Below the pieces are notes generated by a model, which worked only from the letters and a program-made list of their open reading frames with translations, did not search any database and was not told where the DNA came from. The translations under genes and the position numbers were made by a program. From Gemmatimonadota bacterium (GTDB taxonomy: Bacteria; Gemmatimonadota; Gemmatimonadetes; Gemmatimonadales; GWC2-71-9), in the NCBI GenBank assembly GCA_009692115.1, contig SHZU01000001.1, positions 1 through 64,000 of the forward strand: a DNA stretch of 64,000 nucleotides, written 5' to 3'. Positions 57,458 to 62,983 of this stretch are shown here, in pieces (position 1 is the first letter of the stretch; each line of letters starts with the position of its first letter).

Positions 57458-58203
57458 CGGGTGCCGAGGCCGAACCCGCCGGGGTCGGGATGGTCGGTTT
57501 CTGGTTCCTGGTTTTGATCGGCGGGGTGATCCCCTGGGCCGCGTGGCGGAGCCGCAGCCGACTGGCAACCGCCGCGCTGCCTCCCAAAAAGCGCTACCTG
57601 GCCGGCGTCATTGTTCAGCAGTTGGCGCTGACCGGATTGTCGGTGGCGACCGCGTGGTCCCTCGGCATCCCGCTCTTCGCACCTTATTTCCCAACGGTTG
57701 GCCACTGGCTAGCCGCCCTCGGGGTCTTGGCCATGGCCATGGCGGTGTTTCTCGGATGGCCCGAGTGGCGGCGGCAGGCAGCCCGGGGGGACCGGCGGGT
57801 CCAGTTGATCGCACCGATCGATGCGACCGACCATGCGCTCTGGACAGCGGTATCGGTTCTAGCCGGCATCGGCGAAGAAATCACGTATCGGGGGGTGTTG
57901 TTCTGGATCGGGCACCAGATGACCGGGTCGGCGGCGGCAAGTGTGGCCATTGCCGCCGCGATTTTCGGGGTTTCCCATCTGGTCCAGGGGTGGCCGGCCG
58001 TTCTGGTGATCACGGGCTTCGCGGTGGTGTTCCACGGGCTCGTGATGGTGACCGGCTCCTTGTATCCGGCGATGGTCGTTCACATTCTCTACGACCTGAT
58101 CGCCGGCTTCAGCTACGGGCGCTACGTCCGGGCGTTGGCCCGCTCGAACTCTTTCATGAACTCGACCAACGCGACGACGCTCGAGCGGGGGCAGGCGTTG
58201 TAG
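57454..58203 (+). CDS. CPBP family intramembrane metalloprotease
   Basis: 249 aa, six to eight helices. The three CPBP/Abi motifs are present: EEITYRGVLFW, FGVSHLVQG and HILYDLIAG. The family cleaves or processes peptides within the membrane. The ATG overlaps the sufE stop. The last 27 codons (from about RALARSNSF) are antisense to the serC 3' end and are probably not conserved. Confidence 0.85.
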   Translation: MTGAEAEPAGVGMVGFWFLVLIGGVIPWAAWRSRSRLATAALPPKKRYLAGVIVQQLALTGLSVATAWSLGIPLFAPYFPTVGHWLAALGVLAMAMAVFLGWPEWRRQAARGDRRVQLIAPIDATDHALWTAVSVLAGIGEEITYRGVLFWIGHQMTGSAAASVAIAAAIFGVSHLVQGWPAVLVITGFAVVFHGLVMVTGSLYPAMVVHILYDLIAGFSYGRYVRALARSNSFMNSTNATTLERGQAL

Positions 58204-59213
58204 ATGCTGGCCCGCATTCCGCCGGCCGAGCGGTGCCCCTTGAGGCCGGCCAAGCCGTTCTTTTCAGCCGCGGCGCAAAACTGATTCTCCAACTCTTCGG
58301 TCGGCGCCCGGAAGCAGACATTCATCAGCGACCGGCTCCCGGCGGCCACGGTGCCCCGGAAGAACGCCGACTGATCGATAAAGTCATAGAGCAACTTGGC
58401 TTTTTCCTCGTTCCGCTCGGCCATTGCGGTCAAGCCGCCGGTTTCGGCGATCCACTTGAGGACCTGGCCAACCATGTAGATCGCCATGGTCGGTGGCGTG
58501 TTGTGGAGCGACTTCTCCTTGGCGTAGGTCCGGTACTGCATCATGGTCGAGATGCCGGACGGCCCGACCTCGGTCAAGTCGTCGCGCACGATGACGACGA
58601 CGATACCCGAGGGACCAAGATTCTTCTGGGCGCCGGCGTAGATGAGGCCGTACTTGGCGACGTCGATTGGCCGGCTGAACATGTCACTCGAAGTGTCGGC
58701 AATCAGCGAGACGCCGGCCGGCACCGCGGGCTCGGTGCGCCACTGGGTACCATAGATCGTGTTATTGGTGGTCAGGTGGACATACGCCGGATTGTCGGAG
58801 TAGCGGATAACATCGGCCGGCGGAATCTCGGTGAAATTCGAGCCTTTTCCAGACACCGCCTCATGGGTGGCCCCGAATTTCCTGGCCTCTTTCACGGCCT
58901 TTTCCGACCAGACGCCGGTGATCAAGTAGTCGGCGGTCCGGCCGGCGGGCAGCAGGTTCATCGGGACCATCGCGAACTGCTGGGTGGCGCCGCCCTGGAT
59001 GAACAAGACCCGGTAGTTGTCGGGAATCCCCGCCAGCTTCCGGGCATCGTCTTCGGCTTCGGCGATGATCTTCTCGAAGACTTTGCCCCGGTGGCTGTGC
59101 TCCATGATGCCCATGCCGGAGCCGGCGACGTTCCAGACGTCCCGTTGCGCCGCTTTGAGCACCGATTCCGGCAGGACGCCGGGACCCGCATTGAAATTGT
59201 GGACCCGTTCCAT
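58122..59213 (-). CDS. serC: Phosphoserine aminotransferase
   Basis: 363 aa. NFNAGPGVLP at the N-terminus and the cofactor lysine Lys197 in YAGAQKNLGPSG are diagnostic, with TNNTIYGTQW and HRSAGGMRASIYNA. Second step of serine synthesis (and of pyridoxine synthesis in some bacteria). It begins one base after the serA stop, in an operon DUF1015-serA-serC. The 3' end overlaps the CPBP gene by 82 nt. Confidence 0.96.
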   Translation of the reverse strand: MERVHNFNAGPGVLPESVLKAAQRDVWNVAGSGMGIMEHSHRGKVFEKIIAEAEDDARKLAGIPDNYRVLFIQGGATQQFAMVPMNLLPAGRTADYLITGVWSEKAVKEARKFGATHEAVSGKGSNFTEIPPADVIRYSDNPAYVHLTTNNTIYGTQWRTEPAVPAGVSLIADTSSDMFSRPIDVAKYGLIYAGAQKNLGPSGIVVVIVRDDLTEVGPSGISTMMQYRTYAKEKSLHNTPPTMAIYMVGQVLKWIAETGGLTAMAERNEEKAKLLYDFIDQSAFFRGTVAAGSRSLMNVCFRAPTEELENQFCAAAEKNGLAGLKGHRSAGGMRASIYNACPRSSVVALVEFMKEFERANART

Positions 59214-59214
59214 A

Positions 59215-60429
59215 CTACCGCCTTAGCTCAGTCAAATCGACACTGATGACATTGGGGTTCCCGTCCTTGATTTCATCGATGGCATGTTGACTGGGCAACC
59301 CGGTGACATGGACCCGGGCGCTGGCCGCCTCCGATCCATGATAGGCGATGTTCTCGACCTCTTCGACATTGATCTTTTCGTCATAGAGCACTCGGAACAC
59401 ATGGGCCAGGACACCCGGTTTGTTCTGGTGCCGAACCGACAGCACGTGGGTGGCCGAACTCTTCGCCAGCCGGTTCACGCAGTGGAGCGCGACGCCCGAT
59501 TTGGTAAACTGTCGGACGATCCGGATGACCTCGTGGGCAATCGCGGTCTGGGCCTGATCGGTGGAGGCACCGATGTGATGGGTTCCGTAGACCCCGGCCG
59601 ATTTCGCCAGCACCGAGTCGAATTGCCCCTTCGAGGCCCCGGGCTCGCCTTGGTACACATCGAGGCCGCACCGGATCCCCTTGGTGGCCATCGCGTCGAG
59701 CAGCGCCGCTTCGTCCACCACCGAACCCCGGGACGTGTTGATCAGGTAGGCGCCCGGCCGCATGGCCCCGAGGAACTCGGCGTTGACCAAGTGCTTGGTC
59801 TCCGGAGTCGAGGCGACGTTGACGGTAACGGCATCGGCCTGCCGGGCCACGTCGAGTGGCGTCTCGGCGTAGTCAATGCCGAGTTCAAGGCAGTCCTGGA
59901 GTGTGAGCTGGCGGGACCAGGCGATGACTTTCATGCCGAACGACAGCGCCCGCTTGGCAATTTCGCGACCGATCTGGCCGAGGCCGACAATGCCCAGCGT
60001 CCGCCCGTAGAGGCCGCGGGCCTTCGAGTACTCGCCCTTGTTCCACTCGCCCCGGCGGAGCTCGATGACCTGATCGGCCACCCGGCGGTCCAGCGACAGG
60101 AGCAGCGCCATGACCAGCTCGGCGACGGCGATCGAGTTTTTTCCGGGACAGTTCGACACGAAGATGCCGAGCCGGGAGGCGGCAGCCACGTCGATCGTGT
60201 CGATGCCGGCGCCGGCCCGGATGACCAGAGCGAGGCGAGGCGCCTTTTTCATGGCGTCCTCGCCGACCTTCTTGCTCCGGACAATCAGAATATTGGGATC
60301 GACCTCATGGAGCACATCACCCAGTTCGTCGGGCTTAAGGTCCGGCCGGACGACCACGTCGAGTCCCAAGTCTTTCAACCCATCGATGCCGACCTTGTCG
60401 AATTTGTCGGCAATAAGCACGCGTGTCAT
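59215..60429 (-). CDS. serA: D-3-phosphoglycerate dehydrogenase
   Basis: 404 aa. Rossmann motif GIVGLGQIGREIAKRA and the catalytic NTSRGSVVDE and HIGAST blocks, followed by an ACT domain (about residues 330-400; HQNKPGVLAHVFRVLYDEKINVEE) that binds serine for feedback control. First committed step of serine synthesis. Lies 15 nt after the DUF1015 gene. Confidence 0.96.
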   Translation of the reverse strand: MTRVLIADKFDKVGIDGLKDLGLDVVVRPDLKPDELGDVLHEVDPNILIVRSKKVGEDAMKKAPRLALVIRAGAGIDTIDVAAASRLGIFVSNCPGKNSIAVAELVMALLLSLDRRVADQVIELRRGEWNKGEYSKARGLYGRTLGIVGLGQIGREIAKRALSFGMKVIAWSRQLTLQDCLELGIDYAETPLDVARQADAVTVNVASTPETKHLVNAEFLGAMRPGAYLINTSRGSVVDEAALLDAMATKGIRCGLDVYQGEPGASKGQFDSVLAKSAGVYGTHHIGASTDQAQTAIAHEVIRIVRQFTKSGVALHCVNRLAKSSATHVLSVRHQNKPGVLAHVFRVLYDEKINVEEVENIAYHGSEAASARVHVTGLPSQHAIDEIKDGNPNVISVDLTELRR

Positions 60430-60444
60430 AACCCGCAGTCCTGG

Positions 60445-61680
60445 TCAGTCGAGGGTGTGAACAAAGATGCCGCTTTTTAGTTTCGGCTCAAACCAGGTGG
60501 TCTTGGGCGGCATGATGCCGCCGCCGTCGGACACCAGCATGACTTGCTCGATCCGGACGGGATATAAGGCAAACCCGATGGCCATCTCACCGGAGTCGAC
60601 CCGGCGTTCCAGTTCCGCCGTGCCCCGGATGCCGCCGACAAAGTCGATCCGTTTGTCGGCCCGGATGTCGCCGATGCCGAGGATCGGTTCGAGGATCCGG
60701 TCATAGAGCAATTCGGCATCGAGCGACTTGATCGGATCTTGGCCATTGATCGATTCCGGCGAGAGCTCGAGCCGGAACCACCGCCCGGCCAGATAGATCC
60801 CGAAGACCCACTGGCGATCCGGGGCCGGGTGGGTGGCTTCGGCCAGGGAGCCGACTTGCCGGAGCCGGTCGAGCACCTGCTCCACCGATAAGCCGTTCAG
60901 ATCACGAACCACCCGGTTGTAGGCCATGATCTCGAGCTGATTGGCCGGAAAGAGCACGGCGAGAAACCAGTTGTACTCCTCGAGCCCGGTGTGGCGCGGA
61001 TTCCAGCCCTTCCGCTCATTGCCGGCCCGCCAGGCGCTGGCGGAGCGGTGATGGCCGTCCGCCACGTAAGCCGCGGCGATCCGCCGGAACGCATCGATGT
61101 AGGTGTCGGAGTTCTTGATGATCCAAACCCGGTGCCGAACGCCCTCGGAGGTGAAGTTGTAGATCGGATTGGCCCGCATTTCGGCGGCGGCGAGCCGGTC
61201 GAGGTACAGCTGGCCCGGGTACGTCAGGAACACCGGCTCGGCATTGGCGTTGAGCGTGAGCACGTGCCAGGTCCGATCGTCCTCTTTGTCCTTCCGGGTC
61301 CGTTCGTGCTTTTTGATGACGTCCTGCTCGTAGTCCTCAATATGGACGCAGCCGACGACGCCGACCTGGGACCGGCCATCCATCGTGAGTTCGTAGAGAT
61401 AGAGCGACGGATCCCGGTCCTGAATCAGGGTTCCGTCGAGCATGAATGCCTTGAGGTTGTCGCGGGCCTTGAGATAGACCCGTTCGTCGTACGGGCCAAC
61501 ATCGGGCGGGAGGTCGATATCCGACCGACCGACGTGGAGGAAACTGAACGGGTTGCCCTGGGCCAATTGGGCGGCTTCGGCACGGTCCACGACGTCGTAG
61601 GGAGGAGCCGCAACCCTTGCGGCGACACTCGGTTCGGGGCGCCACGCGCGGAAGGGTTTGAGACGGATCGTTGGCTCCAG
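60445..61680 (-). CDS. DUF1015 family protein with an unusual start
   Basis: About 411 aa if read from CTG 61680. The conserved family N-terminus IRLKPFRAWRPEPSV...APPYDVV lies in frame between a TAG (61692-61690) and the first ordinary start codon (GTG 61590), with no ATG, GTG or TTG in between. NPFSFLHVGRSDIDLP, ADGHHRSASAW and MPPKTTWFEPK are DUF1015 blocks. The family is often next to serA; its role is unknown. Initiation at CTG 61680 or ATC 61668 is likely, or the gene starts at 61590 without about 30 conserved residues. Confidence 0.85.
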   Translation of the reverse strand: MEPTIRLKPFRAWRPEPSVAARVAAPPYDVVDRAEAAQLAQGNPFSFLHVGRSDIDLPPDVGPYDERVYLKARDNLKAFMLDGTLIQDRDPSLYLYELTMDGRSQVGVVGCVHIEDYEQDVIKKHERTRKDKEDDRTWHVLTLNANAEPVFLTYPGQLYLDRLAAAEMRANPIYNFTSEGVRHRVWIIKNSDTYIDAFRRIAAAYVADGHHRSASAWRAGNERKGWNPRHTGLEEYNWFLAVLFPANQLEIMAYNRVVRDLNGLSVEQVLDRLRQVGSLAEATHPAPDRQWVFGIYLAGRWFRLELSPESINGQDPIKSLDAELLYDRILEPILGIGDIRADKRIDFVGGIRGTAELERRVDSGEMAIGFALYPVRIEQVMLVSDGGGIMPPKTTWFEPKLKSGIFVHTLD

Positions 61681-61705
61681 AAAAGGGGTCTAGCAGCCTC
61701 GCATC

Positions 61706-62983
61706 CTAGCCGCCGGATGGCGACCCCGTCAAGACCACGGAGCCCCCCTTCATCACGAATTTAACCCGCCGAAGGGCCGCGACCGCCTGGGTGGGGTCGC
61801 CGTCGACGGCAATCAGGTCGGCTAGGAGGCCGACCGCGACCCGCCCCCGGTCGTCGAGGCCGAGGACCCGGGCGTTGACGCTGGTGGCCGCCTTGAGGGC
61901 CGCCAGCGGGGTCATCCCGTAGTCCACCAGAAGCTCGAGTTCCCGGACGTTATCGCCGTGGGCAAAGACGCCGACGTCGCTCCCGTTACAAATGGTGACC
62001 CCGGCGTCGAGCGCGGCCTTGACACTGGCCCGTTTGGCCTTGATATCGTCCGGTTCGGGGTCGGTCCCCTTCTTCCAGCCCCGATACTGATCGACCGCGT
62101 CCCCGGCCGCCACGGTCGGACAGAGGGCCACCCCGCGCTCGGCCATCAGGCGGAAGACCTCGGGGGTCCCGTCGTCGCCGTGGTCGATAGTGCGCACCCC
62201 GGCAAGGGTGGCGCGCCGCATCCCCTCGGCGGTCGTGGCATGGGCCACGACGAAGCGGCCGCTGGTCCGGGCGGTCTCGACAATCCGGGTCAATTCCTCG
62301 ACCGAGAAGGTCGGGCGGGCCTCGCCCTTGGGGCCCCAGCGATAGTCGGCGTAGACCTTGATCCAGTCGGCGCCTTTCCCGATCTGGCGCCTAACGACCT
62401 TGGTCAGTTCTTCGACCCCGTCGGCTTCTTCGGCTCCCTGGGGAACCTGCCAGCGGGGGTCGAAGCCCTTCGGCGCATAGCTGCCGGTGGCCACGATGGC
62501 CCGGGTGGTGGTGAGGATCCGGGGACCCGGGATGATCCCCTGGTCGACGGCGGCCTGGAGCCCGACGTCGGCGTCATCGGCCCCCTCGGTGCCCAGGTCC
62601 CGGACGGTGGTCCATCCGGCCATCAGGGTTTGCCGGGCGTGGTTGACGGCCCGGGCCACCCGGAGCGCGAGCGGTTCCTTGAGCACTTGGTCGACCCAGG
62701 GCGTCTCGTCGTAGGGATGGAGCAAGAGGTGCGAATGGGCTTCGATCAGCCCTGGCAGCAGGGTCAGGCGAGGCAGCGGGATCCGCTGTCCTCCCGTAAG
62801 GTTCGGTCCGACCGCCACGATCCGCCCGGCCCGCACCGCCACCCGCCAGCCGACGCGGAGCGAGTCGCCGTCGAACACCCGGGCCGGTTCGAGTACGATC
62901 GCGGTGGTATCAGGACGGGCCTGGGCCAGGCCGGTGGCCCAGGTTCCGGCGCCGAGGGCGAGTCCGATCAAGACGCTACGCAT
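61706..62983 (-). CDS. Secreted amidohydrolase of the imidazolonepropionase-like group
   Basis: 425 aa. Signal peptide ([19 protein letters not shown]), then a metal-dependent amidohydrolase: [16 protein letters not shown] (HxH), DWIKVYADY (bridging Lys), VAHATT and IDHGDDG (His ligands), CNGSDVGV (Asp). Similar secreted enzymes act on Xaa-Pro dipeptides or amide-linked substrates. It ends near the DUF1015 start; GGAG lies about 7 nt before the ATG. Confidence 0.88.

Follow-up and report, generated by a model that had tools for sequence, protein, structure and literature searches.

The window, which comprises the first 64,000 nucleotides of contig SHZU01000001.1 from a Gemmatimonadota bacterium, carries on its minus strand a gene of the DUF1015 family (60445..61668), the first of an operon that continues with serA and serC. 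The second gene, serA, encodes a phosphoglycerate dehydrogenase-like protein (59215..60429, minus strand; PF02826 and PF00389), and the third encodes a serC-like aminotransferase of class V (58122..59213, minus strand; PF00266). The DUF1015 protein matches PF06245 with 330.7 bits, against a curated cut-off of 25.8, and is thus a member of this family; profile positions 1–324 of 325 correspond to residues 3–318 counted from an ATC codon at 61668. Read along the minus strand, the frame is TAG(61692) ACC CCT TTT CTG(61680) GAG CCA ACG ATC(61668) CGT CTC AAA CCC TTC CGC GCG TGG, confirming the first-pass annotation, which had reported a DUF1015 frame devoid of ATG, GTG and TTG between TAG 61692 and GTG 61590. 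Its placement of the conserved N-terminus upstream of this GTG is borne out as well, because the PF06245 match covers the profile from position 1. The proposed start codon ATC (61666..61668, minus strand) gives a protein of 407 residues, as compared with 381 from GTG 61590 (61588..61590, minus strand), the first downstream canonical codon, which would remain unused. A Shine-Dalgarno core, GGAG (61675..61678, minus strand), lies 6 nt before the ATC, and upstream of it on the same strand are found the in-frame TAG (61690..61692), which is not conserved in relatives, and a promoter-like match made up of a −10 box TAGGAT (61703..61708) that recurs in relatives and, at N18 spacing, a −35 box TTGACG (61727..61732). 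With a transcription start placed 6–7 nt past the −10 box, the predicted 5′ leader is about 28 nt long (61669..61697, minus strand). An ATG at 61704, in frame but upstream of TAG 61692 and missing from the first-pass annotation, was rejected as a start; it overlaps the −10 box (61708–61703) and would precede the predicted transcription start.

Orthologs were searched first in 61 relatives and then in 102 genomes of the GTDB family, 28 of which contain a DUF1015 ortholog by a threshold of E 1e-60. Opposite ATC 61668, these genes have ATG in 17 cases, ATT in 5, ATC in 4 and GTG in 2, with no other codon observed, so that ATT or ATC occupies the conserved place in 9/28 and ATG or GTG in 19/28 (the genes of G017 and G036 are cut by contig ends; their start codons are counted and both are included in the tree described below). 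Within the window's genus, ATT or ATC is present in all five orthologs found (G000, G001, G002, G003 and G005), each from a separate assembly; the sixth congener, G004, whose assembly is 84% complete, gave no DUF1015 match and is not counted. The remaining ATT/ATC genes (G007, G114, G033 and G022) come one from each of four further genera. The first-pass annotation had raised the use of a rare initiation codon, with ATC 61668 among its candidates, and had proposed comparing the start codon in close relatives; the nine orthologs that keep ATT or ATC at the aligned codon, including all five congeneric ones, support that reading. In a sample of 395 genomes of the phylum, two more orthologs were found, one with ATG and one with TTG. 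At 79 loci outside the phylum the N-terminus invariably stands behind an ATG, which lies one codon before the ATC-aligned position in 78 and at the same codon in one, suggesting that, within the genomes compared, the non-AUG start is confined to this GTDB family. The ACG at 61671, which aligns with the ATG of those 78 loci, was also considered as a start and rejected: among the nine genes ACG is found in G000 and G001 only, and it lies 3 nt after GGAG.

The pattern of nucleotide change argues that the ATC/ATT codon is a start rather than an internal isoleucine codon. Between G000 and four congeners, codons 1–25 after the start show 13, 4 and 54 differences in codon positions 1, 2 and 3, respectively, summed over the comparisons; for the 24 codons that precede it the sums are 67, 72 and 63; third-position-dominated change thus begins after the ATC, indicating that coding begins there. 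At the protein level, N-terminal conservation with seven relatives likewise begins at the codon following ATC, and in an AlphaFold2 model the first ten residues have a pLDDT of 97. A Shine-Dalgarno sequence stands at normal spacing to the ATT/ATC codon in 9/9 genes. The GGAG/GAGG core is present in 9/9 ATT/ATC genes versus 4/19 ATG/GTG genes (Fisher p = 1.0e-4), a core picked after a looser motif set had been tried (9/9 versus 8/19, p = 0.004); these and the leader statistics count related genomes as independent, which makes the p values too small. ATT is also more frequent at the start (5/9) than among the internal isoleucine codons of these genes (29/157; p = 0.014). Five of the genes (G000, G003, G001, G002 and G007) lack any canonical codon from the upstream stop to the ATT/ATC, and in G002 a TGA lies two codons before the ATT. 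The other four (G005, G114, G033 and G022) are not decisive by themselves, because each has an in-frame canonical codon upstream of the ATT/ATC; G114 also has a TTG at about codon 2. On these comparative data, translation of the DUF1015 gene very probably starts at ATC 61668.

Other starts fit these data poorly. Programs limited to ATG, GTG and TTG would call GTG 61590, the first canonical codon after the upstream stop, leaving the upstream 26 codons untranslated. However, those 26 codons match DUF1015 from the first profile position, are conserved as protein with changes mostly in third positions, and correspond to an N-terminus that all 79 relatives outside the phylum include behind an ATG. 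Nor is the downstream canonical codon shared: in the five congeners it falls at codons 26, 25, 75, 18 and 25, and in G001 its use would remove 75 residues. Initiation at GTG 61590 is accordingly very improbable.

The promoter region bears on a second alternative, namely that translation begins at CTG 61680 on a leaderless mRNA transcribed from the TAGACC box, both elements having been put forward in the first-pass annotation. The CTG is in frame, and some orthologs do have a −10 box 6–11 nt before their ATG. Yet in the nine ATT/ATC genes the codon at this place is CTG, AAG, GAG, TTG, CGG, AGG, GAG, TGT and CAG, an in-frame TGA separates the aligned place from the start in G002, and the codons from CTG to ATC are not conserved. 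The GGAG core overlaps the CTG itself. TAGACC, which includes the in-frame TAG, lacks the final T of a −10 box and is not conserved either; the single promoter-like site between 60300 and 62200 is instead TTGACG-N18-TAGGAT at 61732–61703 (9/12 matches; shuffled sequences average 0.2 such sites), which comes with a leader. In addition, passages of PMC9031893 report that CUG on leaderless mRNA in E. coli is much less efficient than AUG. A leaderless CTG start is thus very improbable. The third alternative, a recent loss of the ATG or a sequencing or assembly error in a decaying gene, draws on the ATG at the aligned codon of orthologs elsewhere in the family but can practically be dismissed, given that ATT/ATC is common to the separate assemblies of five congeners and to four other genera, which overturns both the recent start loss that the first-pass annotation had suggested and the sequencing error that it had considered, and that the reading frames of all nine genes stay open for some 400 codons with changes mostly in third positions, unlike a pseudogene.

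Initiation at ATC 61668 would instead take place on a leadered message. TAGGAT ends 34 nt before the ATC, rather than the roughly 6–10 nt that would mark a leaderless start, and because this −10 box lies well upstream of the start, the DUF1015 mRNA is predicted to have a leader. TTGACG-N18-TAGGAT, or the same arrangement with TAGCAT, recurs in 9/9 ATT/ATC genes 30–61 nt before the start. Among the 19 ATG/GTG genes, the −10 box lies 6–11 nt before the start in nine, a leaderless-like arrangement, and 38–52 nt before it in five; in the remaining five no promoter was found by the same rule. Leaderless-like and leadered forms of one operon therefore seem to coexist in one family. Every AUU/AUC start thus belongs to a gene with both a leader and a Shine-Dalgarno sequence, which fits the account, in passages of PMC9031893, that leaderless mRNAs of E. 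coli are translated from AUG, other codons being far less efficient. Six loci with ATG orthologs (L009, L041, L045, L047, L049 and L050) have the TAGGAT/TAGCAT promoter 8–10 nt before the start.

A tree of 33 rows was built from the 28 orthologs and five outgroup rows; the accompanying codon-group table covers the AUU/AUC rows versus the outgroup only. Six AUU/AUC rows (the window's genus plus G114) cluster together with 98/98 support, and a second group, with 96/96, unites 18 ATG/GTG rows. The other AUU/AUC rows (G007, G033 and G022) branch together with the ATG row G006 in an unresolved part of the tree beside both groups. The whole tree calls for a minimum of two switches between canonical and noncanonical starts; AUU/AUC may have been gained once and then lost again, or may be ancestral in this family. 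On the sequence comparison, the AUU/AUC start is apparently a long-kept trait of one part of the Gemmatimonadota family.

The gene for initiation factor IF3 itself appears to use a noncanonical start in this lineage. infC is present in 94/102 family genomes, and 50 loci were read from 49 genomes chosen by score or by the presence of a DUF1015 ortholog (L183, from the window's own genome, L133–L162 and L184–L202; G009 twice). The infC start reads CTG in 50/50 of these loci, the window's own genome included, and 49/50 have a Shine-Dalgarno sequence by the rule applied; some loci also contain an in-frame upstream canonical codon, at places that differ between genomes. The CTG in every locus read points to the use of non-AUG starts in this family, and the lineage would thus keep at least two of them, one in the gene for IF3. 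By comparison, infC of E. coli starts with ATT and that of Streptomyces with ATC, according to passages of PMC5472188. We also estimated how often a conserved N-terminus lacks a canonical start by comparing 384 kb of the window's own contig with three congeneric contigs. A first criterion flagged 78/143 pairs and was abandoned as too loose; the final test flagged 6/48 genes, and 6/50 after doubling the own sequence, which added two genes. On inspection by eye, five of the six flagged genes proved to possess a canonical codon at the point from which similarity is genuine, the BLAST alignment having run on into upstream sequence; of the 50 testable genes, DUF1015 alone was judged to have a conserved N-terminus without a canonical start. 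A search of the open-licence literature returned no paper on the DUF1015 start or on infC CTG starts in Gemmatimonadota.

Position, conservation, Shine-Dalgarno core, promoter-like site and gene order are evident from the sequences, and on this basis we propose how the start may work. A leadered mRNA would be made from TTGACG-N18-TAGGAT; the GGAG core, 6 nt upstream, would guide initiation, and initiator fMet-tRNA would start translation at ATC 61668 of an intact gene. The weak AUU/AUC codon is of a kind against which IF3 discriminates, and the strong Shine-Dalgarno sequence may partly compensate for it. The weak codon would thereby probably keep the level of the DUF1015 protein under that of SerA and SerC, with an output that may respond to IF3.

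Passages of PMC5472188 describe as very few the noncanonical bacterial starts characterised experimentally, and three known systems invite comparison. sigR of Streptomyces has a conserved GTC start that is repressed by IF3 and yields less product than its operon partner (passages of PMC5472188). As described there, it resembles the DUF1015 gene in its conserved noncanonical start, strong ribosome-binding site, first place in the operon and misplaced start in annotation, and the excess of its operon partner can be likened to DUF1015-serA-serC; it differs in that its codon is GTC, its product is a sigma factor and its IF3 control is experimental, whereas the DUF1015 start is deduced from sequence comparison. 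The infC starts of E. coli and Streptomyces are the same codons as in DUF1015 and are IF3-repressed (PMC5472188, in part), but infC is autoregulated, whereas the DUF1015 product is a likely metabolic protein. Closer in the latter respect is pncA (BBE22) of Borrelia burgdorferi: according to passages of PMC13398362, it encodes an essential metabolic enzyme that starts at AUU and still appears in truncated form in databases. The DUF1015 gene would likewise encode a metabolic enzyme with N-terminal residues before the database start and AUU as the true start; the pncA start is experimental and from one species, while the DUF1015 AUU/AUC start is traced by sequence through nine genomes of five genera. 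By analogy with sigR and pncA, the ATC/ATT start would hold the DUF1015 protein low and tie it to IF3. A low output relative to SerA and SerC is likely on this analogy; that a response to IF3 is the kept function of the AUU/AUC start is a tentative proposal.

The main rival for a function is drift under a strong Shine-Dalgarno sequence: AUU/AUC would be the real start yet have no regulatory role, the codon having become nearly neutral in one lineage. Relaxed selection would look alike, the distribution can be accounted for by as few as two changes on the tree, and the Shine-Dalgarno core is present in 9/9 genes. On the other hand, a single substitution would turn ATT or ATC back into ATG, and still five GTDB genera have held on to the weak codon; ATT and ATC exchange with each other, and nearby only G006 has ATG. 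A start without any role is a possibility to be taken seriously. Whichever holds, the DUF1015 start has been conserved in five genera and belongs to the first gene of a metabolic operon, and the natural ATG/ATT/ATC/GTG series at one site is material for testing the effects of weak starts. Gene finding restricted to ATG, GTG and TTG would cut 26 conserved residues from the protein.

As to what the start may control, the AlphaFold2 model of the DUF1015 protein (mean pLDDT 92.7) was compared with known structures. It matches the free serine kinase SerK (5x0k; Z 14.1 over 222 residues, rmsd 4.8) and SbnI (5uje; Z 12.6 over 210 residues, rmsd 3.6), and all nine PDB chains with Z ≥ 5 are SerK, the Pyrococcus protein 1vk1 or SbnI, with ParB next at Z 4.5. 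By prediction, therefore, the protein shares the ParB/Srx fold of SerK (Thermococcus) and SbnI (Staphylococcus), but is longer, with 407 residues as compared with about 240; in a profile search at E 0.1, no sequence of any PDB chain matched. No serB was recognised by TIGR00338 in the window's own genome (best E 0.35), and 0/102 family genomes have a match above the cut-off, with weaker matches in 16. The serine-kinase fold, the serA and serC neighbours and the lack of a recognisable serB make DUF1015 a candidate for the missing phosphoserine step: judging from the model, the protein would convert O-phosphoserine and serine into one another and may take the place of SerB. Papers that mention DUF1015 are, by title and abstract, not about its function, and the passages of PMC5764234 contain no DUF1015. 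The full combination, a SerK-like DUF1015 enzyme that closes the serine pathway under IF3-dependent AUU/AUC control alongside a CUG-started infC, is speculative and rather unlikely as a whole; if true, such control would couple serine production to the state of translation initiation.

The gene order around DUF1015 is widely kept. serA follows next in 25/26 genomes with downstream sequence, at a gap of 13–58 nt in 21/25 and 91–156 nt in four. In G002 (L036, L006), serC comes directly after DUF1015, and serA is missing from its usual place.
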